From Straminergon stramineum (taxonomy: Eukaryota > Streptophyta > Bryopsida > Hypnales > Calliergonaceae), in NCBI GenBank assembly GCA_963920665.1, contig OY987269.1:12340501-12404500 (forward strand): 64,000 bases of DNA. The letters run 5' to 3'. The notes beneath the pieces were generated by a model. It saw only the letters and a program-made list of their open reading frames with translations, was not told the DNA's origin and did not search any database. The position numbers and the translations under genes are program-made. Below are positions 14,201 through 42,865 of the stretch, piece after piece. Positions within the stretch are counted from its first letter, which is position 1. Each line of letters starts with the position of its first letter.

Positions 14201-15854
14201 GTACATCCTAGCATTGCAAGTGTCTAGACATGTAGGTGATATCTTGCAAACTTTGCAAACTAGAGTACAATCTTTGGAAGGACTGGCCCCTACTGCAAAA
14301 GGAAAGGTTGTGGACCTAGTCCATTCAGTTTCATTGCATTTAGAAGCCCTGTTCAGGTAATCAAAGTCGAAATTTTCACAAACAAGATAACCAGCACAAT
14401 ATGACTTATGAAACTTCAGATTGTCGGAGTTGTGAATGTTTGTCGTCACCAACTTGCACCAGGGGTGTCCATCGTATCGCTTGTCCGTTCCTTCTAAGTT
14501 CCTTGCTGATGATGTAGACAAAGATGAGCGACTTGGAGGCAATTCGAAGATGACATCCCCATTGAAGATAGGTGGAAGAAAGTTTACACGATGGTGCTTT
14601 ATGTTGTTGAAATCCATTGTTGACAATTCGTTCCTAGAGTAGTGCATAGTGGCTAGTCTCCTCAAACAATCCATTATGCTCACTAGGTCAAGTGTATTGG
14701 GATGCAACGAGGGACGGGACAATAGAGACTGTGCTGGACTACTTAGCAGAGTGCTTAGAACTAAGTTCAATGAATCCTTTTCTTCCGATATAGATTGTAT
14801 ACAACATGGTTGCTTTTGAATCGTTGAGTTGGACAACTCTCCTTCCAATTTGCTAGACAATTCTATAACATGATCAACCCTCTCAACTTTCACTGCTCAG
14901 AGAACTGTAGTATTGGGAAGGATAGGAAATATTTCACAAGGTGGAGTACATGATATAGGGTGACTGATATACGGCATATCCACAGTGGATGTAGTGGAAT
15001 GATGACTTAAGATCTTAGTTGACGCACTTAGCATAGATAGAGGAAGTCCGAAAGCTCTATAATTTCCACATGCAAGGTACCAGCATTGTTCATCTTCTTC
15101 CATACACCTAACAACAGGGACAAACTGTTTCACTCCTTCTAATTCTGACTTCCTCTCTTCTTCGACATAGATAGAGGATTCCACAAATCCAAAGCGAACA
15201 TGAAGTAGATGTCTCAGTACTCTAGCCCATCCTCCTTCGTCTATAGGAAATACAAGTGGAACGTCATGACCATCAACACGAATACAAGCCATGGTAGGAA
15301 GAAAAATGCTCAGAGAATGATGAAAATGAAAGAAGTTCGTCCTTGGTCAAGGATGCATACTATTGCATCTTCATTAAGTACTTTACACATCACAGTCCCT
15401 CTGTCGTCTAGGAAGCAATTGGTAATAAAGGAATAGGTAGTTCCACAATTATTCTCCATTAAGATAATAGTTGCAAAGCCGCCATTGAAGCAGACTTTTA
15501 ACACTACTATTTAGGAAAACATTAAGTGTGTGGAGGTGGTTGTGTCAGGGAAATTTCAAGTGCATGCACATAGCACACATATGTATTATTTCATAAGAGT
15601 TATCACGTCTTCATTAATTGGATACCAAAAGTAACAGAGCCGTCACTGTTAGGGCACTAAATACAACTACATTAGTGTAGAATCTCTACAATTGGCGACG
15701 CATTGAAGAAGTTGTCAGTCTTTATGGCTAAAAATTTGAAAATGGGGGCATCTGCATCAATCCATTCTAGGATGTAGACGTCTGAGGTACTTGGTGATGG
15801 CTTCTTTAGCACATATAAGTACTCTCCATTTCTCCAGACCACTGTGTTTTTCAT
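11214..15854 (-). pseudogene. MULE-like transposase with C-terminal SWIM zinc finger, decayed
   Basis: The main frame runs 15292-13133, then an intron with GT at 13132-13131 and AG at 12604-12603 (phase 0), then 12602-11214, ending at TAG 11216-11214: about 1180 codons. Seven in-frame stops interrupt it: TGA 14899, TAG 13546, TAG 12467, TGA 12374, TGA 11912, TAA 11735 and TGA 11372 (first bases). No indel is needed across 3.5 kb. Upstream, 15504-15310 and 15854-15672 (start ATG 15854) appear to be the N-terminus, offset by one frameshift near 15300. Domains in order: a CxxC...HxH cluster (about 14250 and 14140), a possible DDE core (TCDMQ near 13585; ANSAMANW near 13475, where a catalytic Asp may have become Asn; CLLHW near 13390), a KWLQMSGN segment (12540), and a SWIM finger with CTC at 11420-11412 and CKH at 11354-11346. 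SWIM fingers are typical of MULE transposases. From memory the whole protein matches a high-copy early-land-plant family. Confidence 0.75.
12887..12967. repeat. Long-hairpin element, copy 1 (in the transposase intron)
   Basis: Inverted repeat centred on GTCGGATGTGACGG near 12920. The left arm reads GTGGGTACCACAAGGTA and the right arm, reversed, reads GTGGGTACTAGAAGGTA. The arms are imperfect. Same family as the copies at 19829, 20338, 20873 and 24716. It lies inside the intron 12603-13132. Confidence 0.65.
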
Positions 15855-18593
15855 GTTGTGCAAGAGAGATAGTAGAGCCGATTTGTAGTGATAGTCTTTA
15901 TTTGCTTTGCTCTCACTTCATGCTCTTAGACAGCCATAGCTTTTCAGTTAATCAGGGGCAGACGAAGAAGCGTAAGAGGTAGATCACTCTATATTTCTCA
16001 TCTAGTAAGGTACTTAGAAGATCTAGGATGACTCATGGAAAGAAAGTTGTGTCAAAGACTAGTCAAGTGACACCCGGAAACCTTCGAAAGGTCCTTTCTT
16101 TTGGAGGAGGTGCGGGCAATGAAGAGGCGACTAGAGTGCAAAACAGTGATTTAGCAGATGTGATGACAAAAGATATATGTGCTGCACCAAATGTTGTAGG
16201 AGGAGATGGAGTCTCAAATGTGAGCATCTTTTGATCCCATATGTCTACTTTGAACTAGTTGGCAATCAATGGAGTTTTACTGTTGAGGGTTTAGGATGTC
16301 CATTATGAGATTTTGTTTTCATTTTGCACTTTTAGGCGTGTAATGCATTTGTACTTTAGGGACATGTTTATTGACATTACAATTCTAGGAATAACTTACA
16401 AACAATAGGCTAGGAAGTTTAAGGTGACGCACATGCAAAAATGGCATTTTGACACATTAGAAAATTGTTTATCCATGACCTACTATCAAGGTCATAGTAT
16501 ACACCACAAACATAAATACATAATACTTTAAGCACTTCGATTGGTGACTTTACTAACTTCTGCGTTTGAAGTATGTTATATTCTAGAATGAAAACTCGAA
16601 TCTGGAATCGTTTTTCGTTTAGTTATTCAGTCACTCAGTCCGCTCATTTAAAAAATTTATCAAGTTATATTTTTGTATAGACTAATCCCATTTCATCCTA
16701 ATGGAAAGTATTCAAACTCTATTTTCTACCTTCTTTAAGAAAACCTTCTTTGCTAAAACTACATAATGTCTTGAAGTGCTTGGAATTGTATGTTTCCTGC
16801 TAAAAATTGTTAAATCAATTCAAGAAATTCCTTGGTGAATTTAATGTATGTTTTGGGCCAGAGGTTAAAGTATTTGTTAGGCAAAGCTAATGATGCAGAA
16901 AACATTAGACAAAGAAATTTAGTAAAAACAAGTATACATGTAATACACAATTCTGTAAATGGATTTAAGATTTAGTAAAAAGCAAGCTCAATTGAATGAA
17001 TACTTCTTTAGCCTAATTAGAAAATTTACATGAAATTACTTAAGGAATGATTCATTGTGACCAATCCAATTCTAAGATTGTGAATTGTGAATTCTACAAG
17101 CTACCAAAGGGTATTAATAAGCTTATAAAAAAACCCTCAAGGGTTCAGTTGCTCTTCTCTATTGATAGAGGTTACGGAAATGGTTGTAGTCGTTTAATAT
17201 TTTAGGACTTGTAGTTTTTTTAAATACAAGGGTTTAGGGTGTACTTCACAATGAATCCAAGAGACCAAGAATAGTCTACTCGATGAACATTTGTATTCTT
17301 GGACATCTTCAATCTTAGTAGACAAGTCCACACCTAATTTAGTGATATAATAATAAGGTAGAATTCTACAGCAAAGCATTTAACACTACAAAGAACAGAA
17401 CTAGAACTTTAATATCATTTGCTTGATAAAGTTCTTATAAGCAATAGGTATGATATCCAAATTCGAATTGGCATCCATTTCATTCTCAAATGGGGGAGGA
17501 TAGGTAAATTAAATGAAGATAGTTGATTACAAGGATGAGCTACTATGACGGAGGTCGTTCCAATAATGAAAGACAAATATAAATAGTTCTAAAAATCCAA
17601 TAAGAGTTGCTCACTTATAATTATATTAAGTTTAGAAAAACTTAGGAGCTAAGACACTCCTAAAATAGATCCTAATGCCACTAATAGCAATTGTAAAGTA
17701 GCTTTATGTATCTCATGGAATTAAAAAATCCAACATTCCATAGTTTCCTCTCAAGAACAGCTAATACATTAGATACCATGAAACAATGCAGTTGACCTCA
17801 AGCCTTACAATAACGTCATGAGCCAGTCCTCATTTGGGCTTTACGAAACAAACAATGAGCGATTTAAACAACATGAGGTAGTCTTCATTTGAGCTTGAGC
17901 TAGTCTTCATCTGCGCTATACTAAGCAAATAGAGAGCGGTCAATGCTGGAGCACATTCAGGAGTATAATTAGTCACCAACCGCCACTTTCCTCGCAACAG
18001 TAACTGCAAAGTCTATGTTGGAGAAATTCACTGGTTCAGCGGAAACCAAGGCACAGGAATCTCAATTCCACCTGCTGCACTAACTTTATCCTCCACTGCA
18101 CTACTGTCGTTGCAAAGTCCAACCTATACTCAATATGATTGCCATTTCATTGCATTTGACCAATACCTCACCTCCTCACAAGAAGAAGAACCTCGAGGCG
18201 CCATGAAGAGGAACACAAGAAGTAAGGCTCGTGTGGATGGGATAGTACCGCGCAATGCACAAGTGAAGGAAATGCAACTTCATGGAGAACAACAACAAGA
18301 GGTTCGCTTTCATCACCTTCTTGTATCGTCTTTGTCTTCAATGGACTTCTTTCTCTTCAGTATTTCAATCAACTGCGTACTCCCTGAGTAGGTGAGTGCT
18401 ACGAAATAGACAGATATGAGAAATTGTGAGCATCACCGCTTGAAGTTCATGACAAGGATAAACTTAGTGTTCAATTTCTCACTTGTCCTTTCTGTCTTGG
18501 GCCTCTCCTCTCTGTCTCAAGGCTCTCCTTGATGTCTCGCGCCTGTCCTCTTTGTCTTTTGAAAATGCATGTCAATCTTTTCTCTTTCAACGT
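15855..18593. other. Intergenic; no firm gene
   Basis: Mostly AT-rich. Two short plus-strand frames are worth recording but are not called as genes: 16028-16234, with a basic start (THGKKVVSK), and an ATG at 18203 that opens a basic segment (MKRNTRSKARVDG) followed by Gln-rich residues and a possible splice donor after CAAGAG near 18301. The latter could be a first exon of an element gene. From 18470 to 18560 there are short CTCTCCTCTCTGTCT repeats leading into the tandem array. Confidence 0.35.
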
Positions 18594-19516
18594 AGGATTT
18601 GGCTTGTGTATTGGAATCACAAAGACTACTCATTCGATTTTTACTGAGTCTTAGCTTAACTCCAAAATATGTAGGATCTGAAGTGCGAATATGGGAGGGT
18701 TCAGTGCTCCGAAATCAAAAAAATTTAAAGGATAAGAGCCACCTTACCTGAGCGGGATTTGAGTGGAGATGTTTGGGGTGTCCCCCGCGAGATCCCTGTC
18801 GAGACATCGTTGAAGTAGGAGTCCACTGCGACCTCACTGTCGGGACATCGCTGAAGCAAGAGTCTACGTCTCAGTGGAGATTTTTAATTCAGTCCACCGA
18901 GGGATCAGTCTTCTCTCTGTCCACATAGGATTTGCGTTGTGTAGGAATCACAAAGACTATTCATTCTATTTTCACATAGTCTTAGCTAAACTTCATAATT
19001 TGTAGGATCTAAAATGCAAATATGGGAGGGTTCAGTGCTCCGAAATCAAAAAAATTTAAAGGATAAGAGCCACCTTACTTGAGTGGGATTTGAGTGGAGA
19101 TGTTTGGGGTGTCCACCGCGAGATCCCTGTCGAGACATCGCCAAAGCAAGAGTCTACCGCGATTTCACTCTTGGGACATCGCTAAAGCAAGAGTTTGCGT
19201 CTTAGTGGAGCTTTTTAATTCAGTCCACCTAGGGATCAGTGTTTTCTCTGTGAACATAGGATTTGTCTTGTGTAGGAATCACAAAGACTACTCATTCGAT
19301 TTTCACTGAGTCTTAGCTTAACTCCAGAATATGTAGGATCTGAAGTCCGAATATGGGAGGGTTCAGTGCTCCGAAATTAAAAAAAATTTAAAGGATAAGA
19401 GCCACCTTACCTAAGCGGGATCTCAGTGGAGATGTTTGGGGTGTCCACCACGAGATCCCTGTCAAGACATCACCGAAGCAGGAGTCCACCGCGAGCTCAC
19501 TATCGGGACATCACTG
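18594..19516 (+). repeat. Tandem repeat, ~332 bp unit, two full and one partial copy
   Basis: Units start with AGGATTT at 18594, 18927 and 19258 (periods 333 and 331). Each holds CACAAAGACTA, GTAGGATCTGAAGTGCGAAT or a close variant, GGGAGGGTTCAGTGCTCCG, AGCCACCTTAC and a pair of GGGACATCGC-type words with a CGAGATCCCTGTC phrase. The third unit breaks off near 19516. Within each unit the words GACATCG...GAAGCA and GGGACATCGCT...AAGCAAGAGT suggest an internal duplication. Short frames starting MEMFGVST are repeat-derived. Confidence 0.9.
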
Positions 19517-19828
19517 GCTCCAATTTCGAATTTGGAGCTCAAATCCTTTGCAACTGCAACGTTAGGCTCCTCTTGAGCTACAATTTTGGCTCCTCTCTGA
19601 GAGTGTGCATTTGTGGGTTTTGGGGGGATTTAGTCCATCTCTCTCGTGAGATGCACTACGAAGCTCTACCGCAACTGAACCCTTAATCTGATCCACTACA
19701 AACCCTCCGACGCTCTACCACAACTCCTCCAATGCTCCAATTCTCCAACATTGAATCTGTGCAACTACGGCGATTTAGAAAAAGAGTACCCGCGTGTGAT
19801 TTGAACTGTCTCCCCAACAGGCCAAGAC

Positions 19829-19916
19829 CAATTATGTGGGTATTGCCAGAGACCTACCGAACCACTGTCAGATCCGACAGTAGTTTGGAGGGGACCTTGC
19901 AGTACCTACAGAATCA
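19829..19916. repeat. Long-hairpin element, copy 2
   Basis: Centre CTGTCAGATCCGACAG at 19865-19880. Left arm TATGTGGGTATTGCCAGAGACCT pairs imperfectly with the right arm (reversed: TCTGTAGGTACTGCAAGGTCCCC). Arm sequence differs from the other family members while the core is shared. Confidence 0.7.
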
Positions 19917-20337
19917 GTGTTCTTTCTAAAACCCTAATTGAAATTGAATAGAGAGGAAGATTAGAATCTCACCTTCTTGAGTTCGCGGTAGTAAAGCTAA
20001 CAATCTTGGATTCCGTAGTGAGCAACCGACTCCCTCATGTGGCAAGATCAACAGCTCCAGATTCGGTGAGATTACATCATTTCTAATTGCGGAATTCGTC
20101 ATCACGCTAACAATTTTGGGTTCCACATACAACCACTAGCTCTATCATGGTGCTGTCTCACTAGCTCAAGAACCCATACAATTGAATAAACTTCATTTGA
20201 GAAACCCAGCATGAAGCCTTCACGCGACTATTAGAACAAAAATTTGAGGTTCTCCTAGAAAGTGCCGAAAGCAAGGGCATTGTTCTTCCCTGCGTGTGTG
20301 ATTGGAATTGAAAAACAGGTAGATTCCTCAATTATCC

Positions 20338-20450
20338 TTTGGAAATGACCAATTTCTGGGGTAGCATGAGCTACCTTCCAAACCACCATCGGATCTAACG
20401 GTGTTTTGGGGGGGAGCTCACACTACTCCAAAAATTGGTCATTTCCAAAA
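20338..20450. repeat. Long-hairpin element, copy 3
   Basis: Arms of about 50 bp: TTTGGAAATGACCAATTTCT on the left and the complementary AAAAATTGGTCATTTCCAAA on the right, around a centre ACCATCGGATCTAACGGTGT near 20385-20404. The outer 20 bp are nearly perfectly paired. Confidence 0.85.
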
Positions 20451-20872
20451 GAAACTTCATCCCAAAATTTGAGCAACAAGCGGGAATGAGATCTAGAAAG
20501 CGTGTACCTTGTAGATCTCTCATAGTGTTGACATGATGCTTGAGAATTCTCTTCCTACGACAGCACCCAGTTCCCGAATCGCCATACCCTAAACCCTCCT
20601 CAGCGCTTACGGAGTATGTCAACGCTTACCGCATTTCTCCTCTTCCAGCTCTCTGATTTGCAACCCCCGTTCAAGCTTATAGTCTTCTTGAGTTTCCAGT
20701 CTCAGTGCATTCAGTAACTGTGGGGAGAGAGTCACTCATTGTCAGAGATAGAGAGTTTGAACTTGAAGAGCTTGCTGGAAATTTCAAATTCTGCTTTGTC
20801 AACTATTGTTCTTACACTACTACTTCAAGATAAAGTGGTCAAAAGTCTCTCACCTTGAAAACCCTAAGAGAA

Positions 20873-20967
20873 AACTGTTTTGGTAGGTACTGGGAGGTAC
20901 CCCCCAAACCATCGTCGGATCCGACGGTGGTTTTGGGGGGTATTTCTTAGTACCCACCAAAACGGTA
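20873..20967. repeat. Long-hairpin element, copy 4
   Basis: Left arm CTGTTTTGGTAGGTACTGGG and CCCCCCAAACCATC; right arm GGTGGTTTTGGGGGG and AGTACCCACCAAAACGG; exact palindromic core CGTCGGATCCGACG at 20913-20926. The best preserved core of the family. Confidence 0.85.
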
Positions 20968-21995
20968 TTTTGTTTCTTAAAATATTGACTGCAGGTTCTA
21001 GATGTTTTATTCCAACTCTATATTTTAGGAATTTCTTTGTGCATTGCAATGGACATGTGCTTGGCTAGATCTTGGTTGTTCACTAATTGACACTAAAAAA
21101 TATTTGAATATGTAGACATTTATGTTTTTTTATATGGATCTTAGACACACACAACAAGATTAGACTAAAATTGTCTTACCCTAATTGTTTTCATAGTTAA
21201 AGTGACATAGTTTAGAAGTGTTTTGTTTTCCAATGTCATGTTTGTGGAAATGAATATTAAAGATACAAGATCATTGAATTCAAGGGCTAGCCAAAGGTAT
21301 TGAGAGAACAAAAAATCTTCTTTTGTCTTTTAGGAAAGGGAATAATGGTCCATTTTGAATCTCTTAGTTTTGATTGAATCTTTCTTGAAGGACTTGAAAA
21401 TATTGAGACTAATAACTTAGTAATGCACATGTGTAGTTTTTGGAAAATGATTGGGATATTGGTTTTGATGTGCATTCTGGAATAATTGTCTAGAATATGA
21501 TGTCACCATATTTTCTCAATGATATTCACATGTAAGTCTTCACCAAATTAGACTAAATGTAGCATGCTAACTAACTTGTGAAATAGGTGAGTTACCACAA
21601 TGTTATTTATTCTATAACTTTAGTTTTGATGCCACAAGAATAGATGTTGGTGGTATTGTAGATAAAATGACTTATGTTTCATGGTCATTAACAAAAAAAT
21701 GCGTTGGAATGTCATCAATGTGTTTTATGATTTTTAGCCCTCGTAGTTTGACTTGAAAATTGGGTAACTTTAATTTGGCTTCATTTTGTCTAGCATCCAA
21801 TGAAAGTTAGGGTTTTGTGGTTTCGATCTTCTTTTTTAAAGAGTAATTATATTTTCATCTTATTATCAGTTGATGTATATTCATTGATGCTTATTGTATT
21901 GAGATACATATATTTGAAGTTCAATGTTTAATATAATTCATTTACACATGACATTTGAAATGCTTACATCTTAGTTCTAGCATGTGTAGATTGTA

Positions 21996-22430
21996 ATGAC
22001 TAATCAGCACATTGGACAAGCTTCATCATCAAAGGTGCCAAGTGTGATGGCAAAGGTTCAACATGTTCCAAAGGAAACAGTGCCATTGACTCCCATGCCT
22101 ACAAATGACAAATTGACCATGGAGGTTCTACCAGAGGAGAAAGAGCTGGTAAGCTTCAACGACATTATGGACGCTTGTGACCGTGCTACTGATAATTATG
22201 AGCAGCCACACCTCAGTCACTATAGTGGCCAACGGAAAAGAAAAAAACATGTATTTTCACAAGAGAGATCTAGCACACACTATAGCTCTAAATGCCATTC
22301 TTCAGTGTCTGTTTCTAGCCCTCAAGTTGAGGAGTATTGTGATTGTGCATGTAGTGCACAATTGAAAAAGCACAAGGTGGTTTTCATCCATTTGAGTTCA
22401 GACTCACATGAAAGTGTTGATATTGATTGA
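21996..22430 (+). CDS. Hypothetical 144-residue protein or upstream exon
   Basis: Open frame of 144 codons from ATG 21996 to TGA 22428-22430. No family recognised. It is rich in Ser, His and Lys, with a basic cluster (GQRKRKKHV) that could be a nuclear localisation signal and a CDCAC cysteine group near the end. It lies 190 bp upstream of the ParB-methyltransferase pseudogene on the same strand. It may be an upstream exon or companion frame of that element, or a chance open frame in low-stop sequence. No intron or promoter could be assigned. Confidence 0.3.
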   Translation: MTNQHIGQASSSKVPSVMAKVQHVPKETVPLTPMPTNDKLTMEVLPEEKELVSFNDIMDACDRATDNYEQPHLSHYSGQRKRKKHVFSQERSSTHYSSKCHSSVSVSSPQVEEYCDCACSAQLKKHKVVFIHLSSDSHESVDID

Positions 22431-22619
22431 AACTTAATTAAATCTCTACTTTAGGAGAGTTTCAACTCTCACATCAATGATTGTGCCATCTTGTTTACTA
22501 GGGTGTTTTTGGTATTAATGTGAAATGAATGCTTCTAACTCAAGAATATGCATCTAGTATTTTATTCACTCTTTTCCTTTAAGTTACACTAAATGTGAAG
22601 TTCGTGATTGTGTTTGAAG

Positions 22620-25600
22620 ATGGAGGATTGTACTATTGCCTGTACACAAGAAAATGAGCCTTCATAGACACCAGGTATTGATGACATGATGCAACCTGAG
22701 ATTCGCGGGGAAGAAGAAGAAAACTTTGAGATAGAGGACATTGATGATGGCAAAGAGGAGAAAGAGTTATTGGAAGATGAGCTTCGCCGTTTACAGAAGG
22801 TGGACTCTGTGGCAACCATTGCAAGTTTAAGGATGAAGCCCAAACAGTATTCTCGATTGAATATTCCATTGTACAGGCTAGTAGCAATGCCAATGGTCAG
22901 ACCCACTCTTTCTTCTGACGTCGACAAATTGAAGAGGGAATTTGCTATCGGATGTCGTGAAGGAGCATTGGTCTTCTATGTTTCAACAACAAATGAATCT
23001 GGTGAGAGTTTTACATTCACCAAAGAGGAGAGCAACACGTGGGATCCACTATGGAAGCAAAAAAACGACAGTTTCAATGCCTATGTTGATTTGGTGCCTG
23101 AATTGAAGTTCATAAAGAACTTGAAGTTTTTTGTGTGTGACGGAAATCACCGGCTTCAAGCATGGATGAATCACATCGAAAGGCTATACATGTCTCACCC
23201 AAAGTGGCACATACTAGTTGATTGCATCATTTTGGAGACAAAAGGGAAAATTGAGTTGGTCATGCAAATGATGCATGACATCAACAAGTGAGTAACCTTA
23301 AAGGCTTTGATTAGTGTTTCATTTTGGATTTCTTTCTCCATTAAGTTTTGAAATTAATTTTTTATCCAAGATTTGCGTTACTAACCTTCATTACAAAAGT
23401 TTAGATCTACAAAGGACTCTCATGTAAAGACCAACTTGGTACACACTCTATACCGCGTGCAAAAGTATGGGCTTCTTCCACTAGAGTGATTTATTGACAT
23501 GTTGAGGCCCTTAGAGAGGAAACATTGTATTGTCCAATCAGGAAGAAAGCATTGGTATTCAATGCCGATTGAGGTGTTCACAGCTTTTGTTTTCCGGGTG
23601 AGAATTATAGTTTTACAACCTTATTTTTTTATTGTTTCATGTGATTTTGGTGTATACTTCACTCTTTCTTGGTTGTTGAGGTAATTTAAATGTTGTTGGA
23701 CTTTTATAGTAAGAGATTGCACAAACAACTGATGCTGCTATATGTGTCTACATTGAGGTGACACCTTTTGATGAAAACAACGACCAAGGGCTTGCAAATG
23801 CTATGAGAGTTGGAGCAAAAGATAGGGCCACGAAGTTGATTGTAGAAATGGGGAAGTTGCTTGCAGTGGCAAATCCAACACATGGTCCAACATTTCTTCA
23901 AGAGGTACATTATGTTTTCTATTTATTTATATATGTATTTTTTTCAAATGGCCTTTTCATTTTATAATAGCTAAAAACAACATTGAATTGCATTATGCAG
24001 ATTGAAAAGCATTGGACTACAAATGAGGTGCCGGAGATGACCCTTGAAAAACTACAACTCATTGCCACATGCAACATGTCAGCCTTGCAGAAGACGAAGT
24101 TTTTGAAGTGGTGGAACTCCTCCATGCCTTCCTGAGATGCTAGGCGGTTTCCACCCAAGCCTGTTTCTGAAGAAAAGTTGTTGCCCTTCCTCAACAAGTG
24201 TGTTTGGTGGGCAAGGATGAGTAATTTTTACACTTATTAATCTTATGAAAATTATATGTGTTTCTAGTTTTCAATTGCCACAATATATGGTTTTGAAATC
24301 TGTTGGCTTTCTAACACTATAGAAGTGAACTAATGAGATCTTTGTGTAGATTGAAGAAGCTGCTATGGAATACTTTGACAATGTGACAAAAAAAGACAAC
24401 ATCAATATTAACATGGCCGCCCCACTGGAGCTGGAGACTCTACTAGAATACATTGAAGGGTGGAAGAGGAAGATTTGGGAGCAAGGTTTTGGCCCTTTTC
24501 TCAAAGGAGCCAATGCTTTCAAAAAATCAAACTCTTTTATGAGCTACGAAAGATTAGACCTAGCAATGAAAAGGGTTATTTTTCGGTGAGTGTTTGATTT
24601 CTTTTAATTTTCTTCATTTTTAGAGATGATTTGTATGTAAAATGAGCACTACAAAAATTGTAAATCATCACTCTTATAATTCATCAAAGCATAGAGTACT
24701 TTTGTAATTTTCTACCCTAAGCCAAAAGTTGGGGTAACGTAAGGTACTCCAAAAAGAATCGTCGGATCCGACGGCTCTTTTGGAGGTACTTCTTACTACC
24801 CCAACTATTGGTTATACCATCTATTTCAAAATTGATTAATATGTGGTGTTCAGGATCTTTTTTGGAGTCATTCTACAATGACACTTCTCATTGTTAGAAG
24901 GTCCTTTATGAATGTTTACTTTTGTAGCACTACATCTTCATTTGATATATTTTGAAATGCAAATATATTTATATTGTACTTTGTAATTTAAGACTTTCTT
25001 TTTTTTTTGTAATTGGCAGTTACTTCAAGCATGAGCTTGTAGCAAAAAACGCTATTGCTCAGGAGGATCTTCCTCCATTCTTGTCCACCTGGTTGGACTG
25101 GAGTGCATTAGAGTGTATGTACACTTCGAGTCAACTTCGAACATTTACCACAACCCATTTGGCTGGTGGAGGGTGGTACTTGGATTGTTCGTAGAAATTC
25201 ACCCATCCTTCAGAGGCAAAGTTTTGAAAGTCCTTTGATGGTCTTGGTGTTATTGATTTAGATGTACCAGAGTTTGCTGACCTCACAGACACTCAAAAGA
25301 AGAGGGCTATTGCGAGGAGGATTGTTGCTAACAAGAAAAAAGAGGGCAAAGAACAGGAAGTTTGGGCGAACAAGGAAAAGAAAGAAGCAGAGCGCTTGGC
25401 AAAATTGGCGGAGAAGGAGAAGGAGAAGGAGAAGGAGGGGAAGGGCAAGGGGAAGGGCAAAAAGAAGGTTGAAGCCATGGACCAAGTTCCAGCATCTTCT
25501 ACAGTGGACCAAAGTTCTCAAATGCAAGCCGGAACTCAAAGTGGGTTGAAGAGGAAGGCAGTTCTTGCAGAGTTCACAGAAGACATTGTCACTCAAGGTA

Positions 25601-27230
25601 CCTAAATAATAGTCCTTGACAACAGTGAGGAGGTGAATTCGGAGGAGTTGGTCCTCAACATCTCCATCATGGACATCATGAACAATGAGAAAATTGACGA
25701 ACCAAATTATTATACAAAGGTTGTGGACTTCCTTAAGAAGGTAAAAGAATTTTGTTCATAATACTCAAATTGATTATACTATGAAATAACATGAATATTT
25801 TCTTTCTCAAGTATTTATTATTTGGAAAAAAATGTTTTTGTAGATGTCAACAGGGAAGGCTCGTGTGTATGACAATAAAGTCACCCATCATCCATCAGTG
25901 GACCTCATTCTCTTTGATTGTCAAGAAAATCTACCTGTACCAAGGGTGTCTTTTCCGGTGACTCACGTGCCTACATGGAACTTAGACATAGAGTATGAGG
26001 CCATAGCAATGGCATTTTTTTGGCTGAGAAGCATGTGCAAGACCATGGTTGCATAGTTATTTTTCATTCGTGGAGCGCCGATGCGAAGGGCGTCATTGCT
26101 AGATTATGTGAGTCGTACCCCACATTTGTGAAGAAGAAGGAGTGGATGGGTATGAATCGTGTGCACTTGACCTCGGCTTTAGACAAGACCACTATGGTAA
26201 ATTTTTTTGCACTTATTCACAATTTATTGGGCATTTGACATTGTTTGCTTCTGTTCAATTATATCTAATGTGTATATGGTTCCCATTCTTACAGACTTTA
26301 AAGTTTGGCATCACCCTCTTAGTGAAAGACCTTGGCAAAAGAGGAAAATCAAATTTCACTTTCAAGCGGTCGCCATCAATGCTGAAGGCAAAAGTGGACA
26401 TTAGACGAGATGACATTTTGATCAACTACACCACAGAGGAGACCATGTTGATGAATGAGGCAACATCATTGCTGTGGCGAGGGGCTCGAGAGAAAGATGC
26501 AAGATTTTACCAATTCATCATTGAGGGGACAACTGAAGAAGGGGATTTGGTTCTAGATTGTACAGCATCTACAGATATGTTTTGAATCCAAGAATCGCGA
26601 GATTAAATTCAAATATGTATTGTAAAATCATTCAAGTAATAAATTGTTTGTTATTCATCACAGGTGCTTCTATTACGGCATGTCGTGGGATGGGGTGCCA
26701 CATCGTGGCTTTGGAAGAGGATGAAGAAATTTTTGAAGCCCTTCTTTTGCCCATGCAAAAGCCAACTCCTATTGTGGTGGCAATTGAAGTCAATGATCCA
26801 CCAACTATGGTTACGAAATCGCAAGATCCAGATGCCATGAACGTGGTACCTTGGAAGTTTATTCGGCGGGATAGACCTAGTAAGTAAATTTAAAGATTTG
26901 TGAAAGCTTTGTGTGTATGGTATTTCTAATCTTTAATGAATCTAACAATGAATCATTTTTGTTTGTAGTGCCAAGGGGTTGATGTCAACAGATGCAGTGA
27001 TGAAGAAGCGAAGACTTCTCTTGAGTCCAAAGAAGTCATTTGATCTTCCGGTGTATACCAAGCAAATGGCATCGGCATTTGCAGAGTTCAGTTGCTCTAA
27101 ACCTAAACCCCATAAACAAACATATGCTTTCAATGTTTTAGAGTTCATAGATGAATCGGCATCCGAGGGTAGAGAGACATCAGATTCCTCTATCAATGAG
27201 GATTCTACGACAGAGTCCAATGTGCCCTAA
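22620..27230 (+). pseudogene. ParB-like domain fused to beta-class amino-methyltransferase, ten-exon decayed gene
   Basis: Exons fitted by frame and GT-AG sites: 22620-23287, 23405-23597, 23716-23904, 24001-24220, 24357 (or 24350)-24585, 25020-25740, 25844-26196, 26295-26574, 26664-26879 and 26969-27230, about 1100 codons. Exon 1 has an acidic start, then a CDGNHRLQAW motif (23137-23166) as in ParB/sulfiredoxin-like folds. Exon 6 has a Lys/Glu coiled coil (about 25280-25480). Exon 7 has a VDLILFDCQENLP strand (25898-25936) where amino-methyltransferases carry the [DNS]PP[YF] motif IV. Exons 8 and 9 join to give the motif I signature VLDCTAST-GASITA, then GCHIVALEEDEE. Motif IV before motif I is the permuted beta-class order. 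Breaks: TAG 22665, TGA 23487, TGA 24133, TAG 25192, TGA 25225, TAA 25603, a one-base loss in a T-run at 26015-26021, exon 8 donor reading AT instead of GT at 26575, and an uncertain frame in exon 10. From memory, relatives occur in early land plants. The motif IV change argues against catalysis. Confidence 0.72.
24716..24812. repeat. Long-hairpin element, copy 5 (in an intron of the ParB-methyltransferase pseudogene)
   Basis: Left arm CCAAAAGTTGGGGTAACGTA and AGGTACTCC; right arm GGAGGTACTTCTTACTACC and CCAACTATTGG; perfect palindromic core CGTCGGATCCGACG at 24760-24773. Inserted between exons 5 and 6. Confidence 0.85.
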
Positions 27231-27395
27231 ACTTATGAGATTGACATATCTCATGAGTCAAACTATTATGTGTTCGTTTCCATTATGATTAGATTTGTGT
27301 GTTTTATGGCTACATCTTGGATAGTTGGATGGATGATATTTATTTCTCTTTCCATTCTTCCATTGCTTGAGATTCCTTTAACTGTATGCAAATCA

Positions 27396-27985
27396 AAGTG
27401 TCCCAACTTAAAAAATATAGGGTGTACCCTAAACCCTAAACCCTAACCCAACCAAAGTGTCTTCATAAAAATAATAGGGTGTGGAAAATAGTATGTTCAC
27501 ACCAACCAAACTGTCTATCCAAAAAAATAGGGTGTGAAAATGAAAAATAAGTTCACACCCATAGAAATGTCTTTTAAATATTATAAGATGTTAAAAAGAA
27601 AGGTCCACATTAATGAAATTGTTTTAACAAAAAAAATAGGGTGTGAAAAACTCCTTCATGCAAAGTAAAAAAGCTTAGGTGTTGGAATCCTTGCATACCA
27701 AAAAACATTAACACACCAAAGTGCCTTAACAAAAAAAATAGGGTGTAAAAAACAAAAAATAAATCACACTACCCAAAGTTTCTTCATAAAAACAATAGGG
27801 TGTCAAAAATAGTATATTCCCACCACCCAAAATATCTAAATATTCACAAAAATTGGGTGTGAACCAAAAAAATATATTCACACCACCAAAAGTGTCTTAC
27901 CCAAAAAATAGGGTGTAAAAAGGAGAAATTGATTCACACCCACCAAACCCTTAACTAAAAAAATTGGGTGTCTTATTGTAAATAA
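27396..27985 (+). repeat. Minisatellite, unit about 56 bp, ~10 degenerate copies
   Basis: The phrase AAAAAATAGGGTGTGAAAA recurs with GGGTGT near 27419, 27476, 27530, 27638, 27740, 27797, 27853, 27909 and 27964 (one unit near 27585 reads AAGATGTT). Between them lie TTCACACCACCAAAGTGTCTT variants. Spacing is 53-57 bp, with one gap of about two units. The array starts about 165 bp after the end of the ParB-methyltransferase pseudogene. Confidence 0.85.
27426..27450 (+). repeat. Short plant telomere-type run (CCCTAAA)n
   Basis: Two full CCCTAAA units followed by CCCTAACCC inside the first unit of the minisatellite. This is the plant-type telomere sequence. The run is too short to be a chromosome end. 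Confidence 0.8.
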
Positions 27986-28642
27986 AAGTGTGTGAAATAT
28001 GCGGCATGTGGAGGGGGGCTATAAAACATATAAACTGTGACTCCAAAATTTCAAATGTTGGTCCATATTTTTTTTAATATGTAAGTCACTTAAAATTTGG
28101 ACAAAATTAACTAATGTTTTCCAAAATTTAAAATTTTGTACACCCATAGTCATAGGTTGATCACACTTTTTTTCTTCAAATTTTTTCCCACTCACAGGCT
28201 CATAGGCTCACAAGCTCACGCTCTCAGGCTCGCGTGCTAGCAACCCTGGTATTTTTAACATTTGCAAGTCAATAATTGGGGTTTTGCTATTTCGTCGATG
28301 AAATGGAGAAATTGGAACCTATCTCTGGGAACTGACTTATGTGCCTCACTAGGGTTCCCTCAACCAATATTAGCCAAGCGATGTCCTTTCTATGTGGGAT
28401 TTTGAGCCTAATATGCTCATAACTCGTAATTACCACGATTGGTTAGGTTATAACCTATTTACAAGTGAAATTTGAATCTAATTAGTAAAAACTCTCAAAA
28501 TATGAACAAATACTATATTGGCATGTAACACACCTATTTTGGTTTTACACTCTTTTTGGGTTTTTTGTACTATTTTCTACACTTATTTTCGCAAAAAAAA
28601 TAAAAAAAAAGATAAGTGAGTCCCCCATAATGAAATAGGGGC
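27986..28642. other. Intergenic; fragment shared with 39570 and 9970
   Basis: At about 28195-28262 a phrase rich in GGCTCACAAGCTC and CTCGCGTGCTAGCA followed by TTGGTATTTTTAACA-like sequence recurs in degenerate form at 39570-39660 and, inverted, at 9968-10040. It therefore belongs to the dispersed long-repeat family. A GCAAAAAAAATAAAAAAAA low-complexity run lies near 28590. No gene is seen. Confidence 0.45.
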
Positions 28643-30893
28643 TCACACCCTCATTTGTTTTTCCAACCACACCTTCCCTAATTCCGTGGCCATGCTCTTA
28701 TCCACCCACCATTCAACTTGCTCTCGGGTGATTATTTTCTCAGCCCCAAATTCATTCCATTATGTTGGAGTGTATAGAATGTACTCTAGCCTCTTGCTTG
28801 GAAGAGGGTACTGCCTATAATAGCATATGAGCTCGTTCTTCATGGACTTGACCTTCTTCTCTCAAGTTGCTACAACAACAAGAGGCATCAATGGCTGCCC
28901 TAGATCATCCACATTAAGCACCGTTTTCTTCATACACACAATTCCCTTCTCCACTTCATCCACCAAGTAGTTGATGTCCTCATTGCGGAGACCATACAAG
29001 GGCTTGTAGTCGGTATAGTTCAATGGTTTCCTTCTGCCCTTTGATTTGGGACCACTCTCGTCTGAAAGCTTTAATGTGAGGAAATCTCTATCAATCTGGA
29101 TCCAGCGTTGCACATCTTCTTCATTCTCCATAAAGACAAGTGGGATTCTTAAGTCCCGGTTAGGATTCTTGAATCCAGTGAAAATTGTAGACATCACCAA
29201 ATAGAAATCTTGCAAATGAAGGATTCAACTATTAACAATCAAGGTATTAGGCAACCCCATGAGTAAGTAAATCTCCACATCATCAGGAGATCTCCCGTTG
29301 GTTTTCAATTTTGGGGACTACATACTAACTAGTGCTATATCTCCCAATAGCGTCATTGTAAGCGTTGCCCTTAAACCATCAGAAGACATTTCATTGATCA
29401 TCTAGTTCAAGTCCACATTGAGACCAATTAGAGGTACCTCGCCTTGAACAAGGGTTATTGGAAATGTGGAGGCATCCCGAGATCTCTCAATGCTTAAGAC
29501 ATCGGGAGATCTCCCGATGGCTTAGTACAAACAACAAAAAAAGGAAGTACAAACATTTCGACATTTCATGAGTTATACTTACATTGTACTATGCTGAGTG
29601 GGTTCAACCTCTATATGTTGGCATCGGGCTACCCATGTCCTTCCACTTCATTTGAGTGTATGCAAGTTGCTTTGAGAAACTTTGCTACTTTTGTTCTCTA
29701 GCAATGTTTTGATTTAGCGCCTTGGAGAGATGCATGATATCGTTCTTCCTTGTGGAGTATGGTTCCCATATCAAAATTATGTTGAACATTGAGGCTACCT
29801 CCTTATCAACTTCAGGGATATGGCATGACTCAATCAACTCTTAGTGCGCTTATACTATGTGCTGACCACCAATAATATAGTAATGGGATTTAGTATTCAA
29901 ACTTTCCTTCTTTGGACATGAATCCTAGAAGGCCACTACATTGTCCACCCCGTATGGTCCTTGCTTGAGAGGTAGAACGGTAATGTATTGGTTCTTGGAA
30001 TGATAGTTGGCATCAACGAGAATTTGATTCTTAATTCCCTTGAGCCATTGAGGCTCAATTCCTTCGTACACTAGTACACCTAGAGGAGCCTTGTGAAGGT
30101 TCTTGTAGTGCACCAGCAAGAGTTCACCTTTTGCATTGGCTAGTGGCTTCTTATCCCATCTGTACATTGGCATGAATACTTGGTTGTAAAACTTGTTTAT
30201 TTCTTTAATCTCATCAAGCTCGAGCTCACCAACCTTAGCATCCATCATGTTCACGGCGTGGTGCAGTGTCAGCTTTACAACCTTGGTCTTCTTTTTGCCC
30301 TTGGGATCCTCTACTACTTCATCTCTTAGTCCTCCCGTAATGGCTTTCCGCTTCTTTCCCTTCTTGCTAAGAGATGGCTTTAGAGGTGTTGGTGCAGCAG
30401 ACAACTTCAGTTGTTGCTTGGTCTTGTCTAGAATGTCCCACTCATTTTTCATCTTTTGAAGAGTCTAGAAGTGGGATCCTTTAAGTTTCTCTAATATCCC
30501 CTTTTGTGTAATGGTCTTGCACATATCAAGTTCCATAGTGGCATAATCTAGGATCAACTCGTATTTCCTTGTCTCCTCAATTTTGGGAACCATTTCTTCG
30601 ATAATGATGAGGATTGTGGCGTTATCCAAACCCTGGAGCTCTAATACAGCTAAGCCCCTCATCATGTGACCTTTGTCATTGAAAGTTAGCTTTGGACATA
30701 TGATTGCCATTCCCTCTGTTTCTTCCATCCACTCAAGGCCCCACGTTGAGACTTTTTTATCACATTGGAACATTGTTGCTCGAAATTTATCACCATTGTA
30801 CCAATACAAATGCACCCAGCTATCGTAGAACTTGTAAAGCTTTATAGGTGATAGGTTTATAAGGAGATCCTTTTTTATATTTGCTCTATACAA
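28643..30893 (-). pseudogene. Second ParB-like element protein, N-terminal half, decayed
   Basis: A frame runs on the minus strand from about 30890 (probable acceptor TATAGAG just upstream) to a GTAAGT donor at 29582. It is broken by TAG 30467, TAG 29927, TAA 29852, TAA 29843 and a few later stops, without indels. It reads DSWVHLYWYNGDKFRATMF, a Lys-rich linker (KKGKKRK), then KFYNQVFMPMYRW (about 30195-30155), a IKNQILVDANYHSKNQYITVLP stretch and YYIIGGQHIV (about 29880-29853). A strand ending GGQH or DGxHR with a preceding helix is the ParB/DGQHR-type arrangement. A further segment follows from about 29442 to a TGA at 28645, again with several stops (first near 29404), containing RIPLVFMENEEDVQRWIQID and REQVEWWVDKSM. 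The splice joining the two segments is not resolved. From memory, similar proteins are multicopy in early land plants. Palindrome copies lie inside it. Confidence 0.55.
29277..29519. repeat. 20-bp palindrome cluster 1
   Basis: Copies of the palindrome CATCGGGAGATCTCCCGATG: an exact one at 29500-29519, and variants near 29280-29300 (ATCAGGAGATCTCCCGTTGG) and 29472-29490 (GCATCCCGAGATCTCTCAATG), with a half-like copy near 29327. The variant near 29290 lies in the open frame of the flanking pseudogene. Confidence 0.85.
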
Positions 30894-30932
30894 TAAGAAG
30901 AAAATTTGTTAGATGGTCACTAAGAAATCATC

Positions 30933-31395
30933 ACTTGTCATCAAGAGATCTCTCAATGAATATTTCTCGATCTAGTCTTTTAGGGTATTTACAACCATAA
31001 ATTTGTTTCCTAGTTTTTATCATCTCGTTTGCATAAGGAGTCTTTTTTACTTGTAGCGTTTTTTTTTAATTGGGAGATCTCTTGACGTTTTTTTTAATTG
31101 GGTTCTTGTCAAAACTATTTTACTTTGTTTTTTGTACGATTTTTCCTCATTACAGAAGTCCAACTGCATTATATCAGGAGATCTCCCAATAATATTCAAT
31201 TTCAGCTAGTTTTGTTACTTACTCTTGCTTTTGTTTTTATCGGGAGATCTCATGATGGGCTACTTTACGAGCATCTAGTGGCCTAGTTAATACTAGTTTT
31301 ATAATTAGGGTTTACTATTATTTCTAGACTTAGAGATCTCGCAGTGATAATGTACTACATATTTCTAGTCCACTTTCATCAGGAGTTCTCCTAAT
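30933..31395. repeat. 20-bp palindrome cluster 2
   Basis: Variants centred near 30949, 31077, 31180, 31247, 31336 and 31386 (for example ATCAAGAGATCTCTCAATG, ATTGGGAGATCTCTTGACG, ATCGGGAGATCTCATGATG). The AGATCT centre is nearly invariant; arms vary. The cluster lies just upstream (on the minus strand) of the first exon of the ParB-like pseudogene, probably in its intron. Confidence 0.85.
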
Positions 31396-31510
31396 ATATA
31401 GTTTTAGGGGAACATTCACAATTTCTAATTGGGTTGTATGAGTAGGCACCTTTTGATTCGGTATTCGAGAGCACAATAAAGGGCATGCGAGCGTTCCAAC
31501 GTGTACTTCT

Positions 31511-31642
31511 CACTAGAAGAAATTGTTGTTAATTGAGTTGATGTGTTTTTGTTAGAAAACTTGAAACTGTGTTGGGAAAAACACAGTTTCAAGTTTTCTA
31601 ACAAAAACACATCAACTCAATTAATAACAATTTCTTCTAGTG
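31511..31642. mobile_element. CACTA-type miniature element, near-perfect hairpin, 132 bp
   Basis: Starts CACTAGAAGAAATTGTTGTT and ends with the complement, AACAATTTCTTCTAGTG. The arms pair almost perfectly for about 63 bp around a short GGGAAA loop near 31575. It is flanked by a 3-bp direct repeat TCT (31508-31510 and 31643-31645), as expected for CACTA superfamily insertions. No coding capacity. The near-identity of the arms suggests a recent insertion or inversion event. Confidence 0.9.
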
Positions 31643-33056
31643 TCTGTTCTTAAACCGCACCATACGAAGTCCTACCTACTATATGAGCTTTGTTTTAATG
31701 CAAATCTCCAATTGAGGGATCATATTGTGAAGAAAAATCTTGAAGTCATTTGCTAGCCAATACATGTCTTCTTCACATTTTACAATTACAAATACTATGA
31801 GGGAGGTAGAAACTTACGGGCTGGTCCAATCATCTAGGTTTTTGGCTGGTTGTGAGGATGTTGACATGATTATGCACACTTCATGTTCATGCTCCAAATT
31901 TGGTGCGAATGGCTGACTCCCTCTTTTCCTAGAATCAAACTTTAAAGTGAAACAATGAATCATGTAGAGTACAAATCCATTTCATGGCACAATTAGGAAG
32001 AACCTATGGAATTATAGTTAACCAAGATAGTGTGCTTAGTTACTCCAACAAAAACAATTGTACTCTTCTGTTCAAATTTCTTATATACTATATGATAGCA
32101 CCCGTTGAATGGAATAAAAATCGATGGAGATGAAATGGCACCTGATGGAATGAAACTTGAGGGAGATCTTTGGCACATAAGCCTTGCATCCTCTACTAGC
32201 ACAAAAAGGATGTTCTCTTTCAATTTGCAATGCTAGAGCAAAATACCACTGCTCACCCTAACTTCTCTTCCTACAATCAACATGACAACACTATCATATC
32301 ATTGTTGCTATTTAGGGAAGTGCAATTGAAGACAATGCAACGTAGTATTCATGAATACTCTACAACAATTAAGTAGGTCTAAGAGAGCAAACACATTCAA
32401 CTTCTAATTTTCCTAGTGTGATTGAATCCATTTCACAACTACGCCTTAGCTCCTTCCATATCCGGTTACTAGCCGAAGGACCTCGCCCTACTTGGAAGTC
32501 CTTGAATGTAGACCAAAAACACATTGAAACTTGTTGCAACATAAGCTAGAAAGATTGAAAATACTAACTTACAGTGTTTGTGCGTCTTGACTCCAACATC
32601 CTCCATGCGCGAACTTCCTCCAAATTGTGCAGCTCTTCCCATGAAGGCGCCTCCAATTGTCACACTACTACTCAAATCTACCGACTCTCTCGATAAAGGC
32701 ACGCTGCGACTCAAATCCGCATCAATGAAGGCGCCGCAACTCCAACTCTCTCAATGAAGGCGCGGACAACTGCAATTGTCAAAGGTGCCACAACTCCCAA
32801 CTCTGAAATGCGCAAAGGAACCACTTATGCATAGTGTAGAAAAAAACTAGAGGAAGACCAAGACTCCTAAAATCAGCCAGACGAAAACAAAAGTAGAAGC
32901 CAAAGGTAGAGACCATGGACGCCAACACTAGTGGGAGAAACGCAGATTGCACTAGAGTGTAAAATCAACATGGAGCCATGCACTCATGGCACCATTGATT
33001 GGGAGGGTGGTTTGACAGTCCATCAAGACGACTAGACCCCCACTGAATGGGGCATG
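31643..33056. other. Intergenic; no firm gene
   Basis: No supported gene. Between about 32635 and 32800 a degenerate short repeat recurs (GAAGGCGCCTCCAAT, GAAGGCGCCGCAACT, GAAGGCGCGGACAACT) at irregular spacing. Other short frames show no domain. Confidence 0.4.
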
Positions 33057-33171: not shown

Positions 33172-34847
33172 ATTACTTTGCTTAAAATTCAATATTCATT
33201 GATCATTTCCTTAGTTATGAAGGAATTGGTCACGGCTTTGAAATTACTAGACACTACCACATAAAATGATCAAAAGAATTTGGGTACTTATAAGATGAAG
33301 TACTCACTTGTGCAACAAGTGGGAGCAAGGTTGGCCCATTACGGCCCAAATTATGATGATTGTGTATGTGCATTCAAGTTCAAAAATGTACACATGCATT
33401 ACAATTTTGTGCACGAAGGCCTTGCTCCTATGTTGTTGATAATGGTGTACTTCACTTGATTTTGAAATTCATGAGAGCCACTTGATTATGTAATGACTTG
33501 TATATGAAGTTTTTGCAAGGGTGAATTACCAAGAGTTTAGGGTGATCTATATATAATTTGTTTAGGGTGATTGAGTTCTTAGACAATGAACTATAAACAA
33601 ACCCATGTATGTACAAGAAACTTCTTACTATATGAAATGCTATTGTAAATGACACATTATAATTTCTTATACAAAAATACCATAACTATGTTTAATGAAT
33701 TTCAAAATCACTTCTTTTTGATAGGGAAGATATATGAACACAAAAAATGTACTTGTAGGAGATGTACCAACTTAATATGACCCTAAACCCTTAGAAAACA
33801 AATAGAAGAAGTACTACCCAATATCTAGAATTGAAGAAAACAAAGAAGGTTCACCCTAAAACTTCCTACAATCTTGAACTATTGTCTTCAAATGAAGTGG
33901 GTTTGATAAGAAATACAAAGCTTGAGGGGGGGGGGGGGGGGATATAGATCATGAAAAAATAAAAAGAAGGGTACAAAATGGAAAATAGGATTGAGGATAA
34001 TATAGGGTTTAGGTATAAAACTCAAGCATGAAGAAAAAATATTTAAAAAAATATAGAGTATTCCAAAAATACATAAATTTAGAGTGAAAGAAAAAGGTGG
34101 AAAAATACAAGGGGGTAAAACTAATATGGTTTAGGGGAAAAACAATAGGGGGGAATTAAATAGAGAGGATTCAATATAAAATAGTAGATGGAAAATTATA
34201 TAGTGGGTGGGAAAAAAAAGAAACATTGGTAAAAATGTAGATGGTGGAATACAAAAATATAGAATGTGGGAAGAAATTAGAACTTAGTTACTTACATGAA
34301 TTGTACCTCATTGAAATTTACCACCTTTATCTTTATTTTAGTAAGGCCTACAAAAATATGTAATTTTTTTCCTCTCCTTTTCTTCCCCTGAGTTTTTCCA
34401 GTTTTTTTACTTCTTCATATTCTTTTTAATTCCATTTTTTGCTCCTTAATTTTCTTATTTGCTTGTAGGTTCTTTTAATTATACTTTCATTTTTGTTTCC
34501 CTTTCCCCATTTTTTCCCTTTCCCTTTTTTTTTCTTTCCCCATTTTTTTCCTTCCTCTGTTTTAATGACATCTATGTAGCATACTTGCAACATTTGGCAT
34601 ATTTTCTATTCTACTTATTGAAGTAAGTGCTAAAACTTTTCAACAAAGTTTCAAGTTCTTTTCCCATAGCAATTAACAATTTTACAACAATTAAAAAGTC
34701 TAGCACAATTCGTGATTATAGGGACATGGTCTTAGGTCACAATATTCACTATAAATAGAAAGTTTTTCTCTACTTTTGGAAAAAAAAATGAAGGAAAAAG
34801 ATTAGGGTGCAAAAAATTCCCTCAAAAAAGTTTTCGGGGCTTGTGAG
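33172..34847. other. Intergenic, low complexity, leading into copy B
   Basis: Contains a 16-base G run at 33926-33941, purine-rich AT sequence to about 34270, and a pyrimidine block at 34490-34560 that mirrors the purine block at 10.6 kb. From 34580 to 34847 lies the TATA-containing module also found inverted at 10040-10290. No gene recognised. Confidence 0.5.
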
Positions 34848-42043: not shown

Positions 42044-42865
42044 TTGGGTGATCTCCCATTGATTCATCCATGGACTTCATTACATTATTTTTCTATCGGG
42101 AGATCTCTTGATAACTTCTATAAACGCAAATTTTGCATTATCAACGCGAGTTCTCCACTTCTCCCGATGATCTTAGTAATCCGAAATTCTACCTTATCAT
42201 TAAGAGATCTCCAAATGATTGTAGTCTACTCGAATTCTGCATTATCATGGGGAGATCTCCCATTGATAATGCAAAATTTTCGCTTACAGAAATCATTGAG
42301 ACATATCCCAATGAATTCTGCAAACGCAAATTTTGCGTTATCAATAGGAGATCTCCTAATGAAATCAATAAATGGTAATATTGCAATATCATCGGGAGAT
42401 CTCCCGGTGACTTAAGTATATTCATATCTGATAAGATCATTAGGAGATCTTTCAATGAGATGAATCTATAAGCAATCCGGTAGGCTATTGGGAGATCTCT
42501 TGATGATTTTAGTCAAGAACCTATCCGGTTTGGGATGGGGAGGTTTTCCACTATCTGTGTCTAGAGATCTCGCAATGAATTGTTTGTGAGTTTGGGCATT
42601 GTGTCTATTGGGAGATCTCCCAATGAATTGTTTTCTAGTCCAACCACTGGGGCTATTGGGAGATCTCTTGATGTTTATATTTTTTGAGGTATCAAGACAT
42701 TTGTCAATATCAATTTTATGTGGGATTTTGATTATTCCATCAATTGATGCCTTGATTGCATTATTATTGGGGGCATTCCATATCTTTAATTAATCATCTT
42801 AATGCTTTCTTCGAGTGCTAGTATTTTTTGATGTATAGTTATTTCATCTGGAGATCTCCTGATGG
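42044..42865 (+). repeat. 20-bp palindrome cluster 3, 48-bp register
   Basis: Palindromes (consensus ATCGGGAGATCTCCCGAT) are centred near 42051, 42103, 42208, 42255, 42351, 42400, 42448, 42495, 42568, 42615, 42663 and 42854, with degraded ones near 42151 and 42303. Most steps are 47-49 bp. The spacers also share words such as CGCAAATTTTGCATTATCA (42125, 42324). A multiple of three keeps a frame open, so the plus strand translates to a 16-residue repeat (SxGDLPMI type) from 42044 to 42415. I read this as repeat-derived, not as a gene. It directly precedes the pseudogene at 42963. Confidence 0.9.

Follow-up and report, generated by a model that had tools for sequence, protein, structure and literature searches.

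A decayed intron-bearing gene of Straminergon stramineum joining a predicted ParB-like fold to a methyltransferase-derived domain

Introduction

The window analysed here is a stretch of 64,000 nucleotides from contig OY987269.1 of the Straminergon stramineum assembly GCA_963920665.1, in which a first-pass annotation had described a pseudogene fusing a ParB-like domain to a permuted DNA amino-methyltransferase. The locus raises the question of what such a fusion is doing in a plant nuclear genome: whether its two halves form one gene, whether that gene has multiplied, whether it travels with a mobile element and whether its product methylates DNA. The answer that we prefer, with about as much confidence as doubt, is that the locus holds a degenerate member of a eukaryotic family of intron-bearing genes that has been amplified, that the gene most likely serves a DNA-type mobile element as an accessory, and that the methyltransferase part of its product is non-catalytic.

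Results and discussion

Gene structure and decay of the window copy

The gene was modelled as ten exons at 22620-27230 on the forward strand (Table 1), with exon borders set by eye to preserve the reading frame, giving a spliced product of 1,114 positions. All nine introns of the model end with AG and seven start with GT; the other two, introns 4 and 8, have AT instead, which was read as loss of the donor site. The strings on which the first-pass annotation relied, namely CDGNHRLQAW, a Lys/Glu-rich stretch, VDLILFDCQENLP, and VLDCTAST joined to GASITACRGMGCHIVALEEDEE, were all recovered on this strand where it had placed them.

Table 1. Exons of the modelled gene and features in and next to it.
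Feature	Position	Strand	Remarks
Exon 1	22620..23287	+	Predicted ParB-fold domain; CDGNHR; C-terminal MHDINK; stop at 22665
Exon 2	23405..23597	+	Stop at 23487
Exon 3	23710..23904	+	Opens with stop TAA (23710)
Exon 4	24001..24216	+	Stop at 24133; AT donor, exon end therefore inferred
Exon 5	24350..24585	+	
Palindromic MITE-like insert	24718..24814	.	Inserted in intron 5; does not belong to the gene
Exon 6	25020..25740	+	Lys/Glu-rich stretch; stops at 25192, 25225 and 25603
Exon 7	25844..26196	+	VDLILFDCQENLP; probable motif IV region, DCQENL for DPPY; frame change near 26013-26019
Exon 8	26295..26574	+	Region ahead of motif I and first half of motif I (GDLVLDCTAST); AT donor
Exon 9	26664..26883	+	Second half of motif I (GASITACRGMGCHIVALEEDEE)
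Exon 10	26969..27230	+	Runs to the terminal stop
Repeat array	27417..27990	+ (gene's strand)	About 11 degenerate units of about 56 bp with a ATAGGGTGT-like motif

Seven in-frame stops and a single frame change in a run of T mean that the window copy is dead, and its description as a pseudogene therefore holds. The exon-7 relative P0121, 94% identical to the window copy, has an open reading frame across the site of the frame change. The end of exon 1 is supported by the fact that 104 of the 120 listed exon-1 relatives stop exactly at MH[DN][IV]N[KS], 7 continuing beyond it and 9 lacking the motif. Its start is less certain: several relatives extend beyond it on the upstream side, and exon 1 is perhaps not the true first coding exon; if the latter lies further upstream, the stop at 22665 may have no bearing on the gene. 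An open frame of 146 residues at 21990-22430 (+), just upstream on the same strand and without a Pfam match, may belong to this gene as a 5' exon or be a gene of its own.

Relatives and copy number

A search with exon 1 retrieved 210 relatives at E <= 0.01 out of 272 candidates, the best at 6.4e-91, and identity to exon 1 among the 120 listed was 50-90%. The search with exons 7 and 8 gave 15 relatives out of 61 candidates; ten of these span the site in exon 7, and five lie over exon 8. These E-values and numbers place the gene far beyond chance. No match at E <= 0.001 was found when the full spliced protein was compared with 5.8 billion proteins (7,983 scored candidates), probably because the relatives are stored as single exons.

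A phylogenetic tree was built from the window sequence and 110 of the 120 listed relatives, the ten shorter than 190 residues being left out. Its 111 rows fall into two deep clades of 47 and 64, and 24 long-contig rows with short tips form a clade on a stem of 0.39 with a support of 100/100. The window sequence itself sits on a long terminal branch (0.35), which a pseudogene would be expected to have. At 80% identity with single linkage, 29 of the 38 long-contig rows are linked, representing 131 member sequences, and clusters of exon-1 relatives hold up to 48 members; such copy counts may include orthologues of several related species, and repeated sampling may also account for the cluster sizes. 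Relatives P0017 and P0107 are each listed on a contig of 460,842 bases and are 88% identical to each other, pointing to a pair of copies within a single genome. Taken with the number of exon-1 relatives, the clusters and the tree, this pair strongly suggests that the gene family has been amplified, in agreement with the multi-copy spread that had been proposed for it.

A predicted ParB-like fold in exon 1

The assignment of the N-terminal part to ParB comes from structure prediction, which bears out the earlier proposal: the region encoded by exon 1 is predicted to have the ParB/sulfiredoxin fold. A first model (exon 1, 39 rows, mean pLDDT 63.5) gave no ParB among the rows listed and was replaced by a model from 101 rows. 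The latter contains a translated intron at about residues 217-256, and matches in that part are meaningless. Foldseek comparison with PDB gave no E-value reaching 0.001; the ParB/sulfiredoxin rows had TM-scores of 0.17-0.23 by query length, and the first row had an rmsd of 15.7. CDGNHR, present in 104 of the 120 listed relatives, may be equated with the GERR motif of ParB, a GxxR-type motif with a phosphate-binding arginine.

Sequence profiles of the exon 1 family found no match to Pfam ParB and no ParB chain among PDB sequences, and hhalign of the exon-1 profile with 14 ParB rows scored 12.4, under the best shuffles (up to 15.6). A ParB-like PHROG family was matched weakly by 15 of 39 exon-1 members (best E 0.068), the next family by 3 of 39. 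Weak matches to DUF1015 were seen in 5 of 39 members, to DGQHR in 1 and to DndB in 1, the unrelated KMP11 also being matched in 5. No exon 1 relatives were found in viral contigs or prokaryote genomes, or in phages by tblastn.

For model m9a85302318c4, made from relative P0060, the top viral structure match was an uncharacterised Faunusvirus protein (E 3.0e-4). A giant-virus origin of the gene was considered on this ground and is kept as a lead only, the two structures superposing poorly (rmsd 25.8 over 342 columns).

A methyltransferase-derived C-terminal domain

Exons 7-9 matched DNA methyltransferase families of PHROG (best 8.5e-6), the CcrM model (0.0016) and Pfam N6_N4_Mtase (E 0.0012), the last with 19.3 bits against a gathering cut-off of 26.7. 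The top matches in these three comparisons fall within exons 8-9, on motif I or close to it. A sequence comparison with solved structures listed five, each of them an amino-methyltransferase (E 0.26-1.2). Scanned singly, relatives P0134 and P0132 matched a methyltransferase PHROG at 2.3e-4 and 0.083, while the exon-7 relatives P0121 and P0124 and relative P0133 gave no such match.

When compared with five phage enzymes, the exons 7-9 profile scored 65.4 (E 3.1e-9), against a maximum of 13.9 in ten column shuffles, in a match that spans exons 8-9 and stops short of exon 7; the exon 8 profile scored 47, with shuffles reaching at most 16.6. A tblastn search of phages with exons 8-9 gave 368 records at E <= 10; the 15 listed have E-values of 0.3-1, 13 of them being annotated as DNA methyltransferase and 2 having no annotation. 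No exon 8 relatives were found in viral contigs, and no exon 7 relatives in viral contigs or prokaryote genomes. To judge from the PHROG and profile comparisons, exons 8-9 descend from an amino-methyltransferase, as had been supposed, and the C-terminal domain is probably of the beta class (PF01555 type).

The first-pass annotation also placed motif IV ahead of motif I. The motif I region stands: DCTA[GS]TG is kept in four of the five exon-8 rows, the fifth, P0130, having DCTASIRNF. A permuted order, in which exon 7 supplies motif IV, is suggested by the exon 7 profile, whose alignment puts DLILFDCQENL over the motif IV region with a score of 22.7 (maximum of ten shuffles 16.7); it is likely and unproven, because this match has an E-value of 0.01 and an hhalign probability of only 4%.

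In [DNS]PP[YFW], both prolines and the aromatic residue take part in amino-methyltransferase catalysis. At the exon 7 site this motif occurs in none of the ten rows, nine of which read DCQENL and one DCPENL, with D, C, E, N and L unchanged in all ten. The residues replacing DPPY are conserved, and the replacement therefore characterises the sampled family rather than reflecting decay of the window copy; the intact copies with a DPPY-type motif IV that the earlier annotation had anticipated did not appear among these relatives. In the spliced window copy a search for [DNS]PP[YFW] found none. The only similar string, DPPT, lies in exon 9, 50 residues past motif I; it ends in a non-aromatic residue, and P0134, the sole relative read at that site, does not contain it. 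Motif IV located outside exon 7, for instance at this DPPT, is possible.

Surroundings of the gene

The repeat array begins 187 bases beyond the stop of the gene. All nine matches of the window to AWWGGGTGT are inside it and on the gene's strand, compared with a mean of 2.7 and a maximum of 8 in 100 shuffles, the pattern having been picked only after the array had been seen. The array may be a candidate binding-site array for the product of the gene. The flanking terminal repeats suggested by the earlier annotation found no convincing counterpart: among the 25 listed of 37 inverted pairs at 19500-32500, none frames the gene convincingly. No transposase was tied to this copy, and Rfam gave no match at gathering score.

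Several other repeats and open frames lie in the window. The MITE-like insert of intron 5 has a common centre, CGTCGGATCCGACG, with another MITE-like palindrome at 20866-20974. A tandem repeat of 331 bp (2.8 copies) occupies 18572-19512, and a palindrome at 31511-31642 has arms of 63 bases that are 98% complementary. Two long open frames of 450 and 155 residues at 13076-14896 (-) have no credible Pfam match; by eye we take them to be transposase-like. A second pseudogene at 28680-30850 (-), convergent with the first, reads ...HYYIIGGQHIV.AH...ALNQNI...; its GGQH resembles the DGQHR/ParB type by eye, and it has no Pfam match.

Direct repeats at 34842-39489 and 57008-61827, 22.2-22.3 kb apart and 78-85% identical, enclose an integrase (Integrase_H2C2, E 4.6e-11) and are likely an old, very long LTR retrotransposon. 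Palindromic ATCGGGAGATCTCCCGAT-like sites, counted with up to 5 mismatches, occur 22 times in the window, five shuffles giving 0-4, and cluster at 29282-31378 and 42043-42846, much of the latter cluster being at 48 bp spacing. The palindromic GGGAGATCTCCC was rejected as the binding site of the gene described here, because its clusters lie elsewhere, over the pseudogene of the minus strand and in the interval that the long direct repeats enclose.

Alternative explanations

The locus could belong to an expanded host gene family, perhaps a long-ago domesticated element, that is immobile today and leaves pseudogenes by ordinary duplication. The strong conservation of the exons over a deep tree and the failure to find convincing element ends around the window copy would fit such a family, whereas the short-tipped clade, whose 24 rows come from many contigs, the clusters of up to 48 members (perhaps partly repeated sampling) and the precedent of an algal transposon speak against it, and we consider it rather unlikely. 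Far less probable is a misreading in which two unrelated adjacent pseudogenes, one ParB-like and one methyltransferase-like, were taken for one gene. It would explain why no retrieved relative carries both halves and why the full spliced query has no match at E <= 0.001, but nine introns ending with AG join the exons in frame, save for the stops and one frame change, and the algal protein, as described in the available part of PMC12477816, has both domains and is about as long as the spliced product modelled here. In addition, P0071 (exon 1) and P0130 (exon 8) are each listed on a contig of 9,146 bases, which is suggestive only; P0078 and P0135 likewise share a contig value, of 2,160 bases, a length that could not hold both exons at the spacing seen here.

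The remaining alternative concerns activity: intact copies may encode a working methyltransferase that modifies its own element, with an unusual motif IV that is either DCQENL in place of DPPYNL or the DPPT of exon 9. The residues D, C, E, N and L, which all ten rows keep at the exon 7 site, the DCTA[GS]TG in four of the five exon-8 rows, the presence of DPPT itself and a published proposal on algal relatives (available part of PMC12477816) are consistent with an enzyme. However, nine of the ten rows have neither the catalytic prolines nor the aromatic residue at the exon 7 site, only one proline is present in the tenth, and the DPPT of exon 9 is without an aromatic residue and missing from P0134, which leaves an active enzyme quite unlikely in our judgement.

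Proposed function of intact copies

Under the preferred reading, of an amplified mobile-element accessory gene with a non-catalytic methyltransferase part, the product joins an N-terminal domain of predicted ParB/sulfiredoxin fold to a C-terminal amino-methyltransferase-derived domain. The former would act in intact copies as a nucleotide-gated DNA grip, and may load on short repeats that belong to the element, possibly in arrays such as that at 27417-27990. The latter, having a motif I-like SAM site and no standard motif IV, would serve as a non-catalytic DNA- or SAM-binding module. By analogy with VANC proteins, both parts together may mark the element or shield it from host silencing rather than methylate it. 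The absence of the usual catalytic motif from the related copies that span the exon 7 site suggests a selfish-element protein that grips DNA without methylating it.

A more specific version, which is unlikely as it stands, holds that a phage-type ParB–DNA-methyltransferase fusion lost its catalytic motif family-wide and was turned to non-enzymatic, ParB-gated self-recognition on element-borne arrays, with an anti-silencing role. If true, it would mean that a parS-like partition mechanism has been reused for transposon anti-silencing.

Comparison with known systems

The two-domain architecture is of a known kind, from which the window gene differs in its introns, its missing catalytic motif and an association with an element that is unproven. 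The available part of PMC12477816 describes Sola1-1_Ec32, a 21.5-kb transposon of the brown alga Ectocarpus, which encodes, opposite its transposase, an accessory protein of 1,104 residues with a ParB-like and an N4/N6-methyltransferase domain, and it cites similar proteins in green and red algae. The suggestion that the window gene represents an undescribed class is thereby overtaken, ParB and N4/N6-methyltransferase accessory genes of algal transposons having already been reported there. The titles and abstracts of the literature searched contain no land-plant ParB–methyltransferase family, and an earlier mention is still possible.

As in Sola1-1_Ec32, both domains are in one protein (1,104 residues there, 1,114 spliced positions here), an agreement in length and domains that depends on the splice model and on comparison with the published description rather than with the sequence. 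Unlike it, the window gene has nine introns, and neither convincing element ends nor a transposase were found with it; a further difference from the algal protein is that none of the ten relatives has DPPY at the exon 7 site. The algal proteins have been suggested to epigenetically modify their own element (available part of PMC12477816). The amplified, intron-rich ParB fusion described here bears on this idea, since an accessory protein without the usual catalytic motif may grip DNA instead of methylating it.

Fusions of ParB with N6_N4_Mtase are also found in phages and prophages, those of phages being reported in the part of PMC12704722 that was available. The protein of Streptococcus phage Javan492, for example, has the same two domains with ParB first, and it retains DPPY, unlike the exon 7 site of the window family. 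The searches tie the window gene to phages only through exons 8-9, which match phage methyltransferases distantly. Sulfiredoxin, whose signature is FGGCHR, has a fold in common with the predicted ParB-like part of the window gene; this signature is absent from the window family, in which 104 of the 120 listed rows have CDGNHR. According to the available part of PMC12704722, a 2025 survey of the ParB fold, sulfiredoxin is the commonest eukaryotic form. VANC proteins, as portrayed in the available part of PMC5735166, bind arrays of motifs in the same orientation in the non-coding DNA of their own elements. The likeness of the window gene to VANC of Arabidopsis VANDAL is functional only, with no homology claimed, and consists in an element-borne protein, as the window gene is proposed to encode, accompanied by arrays of a short motif in one orientation.
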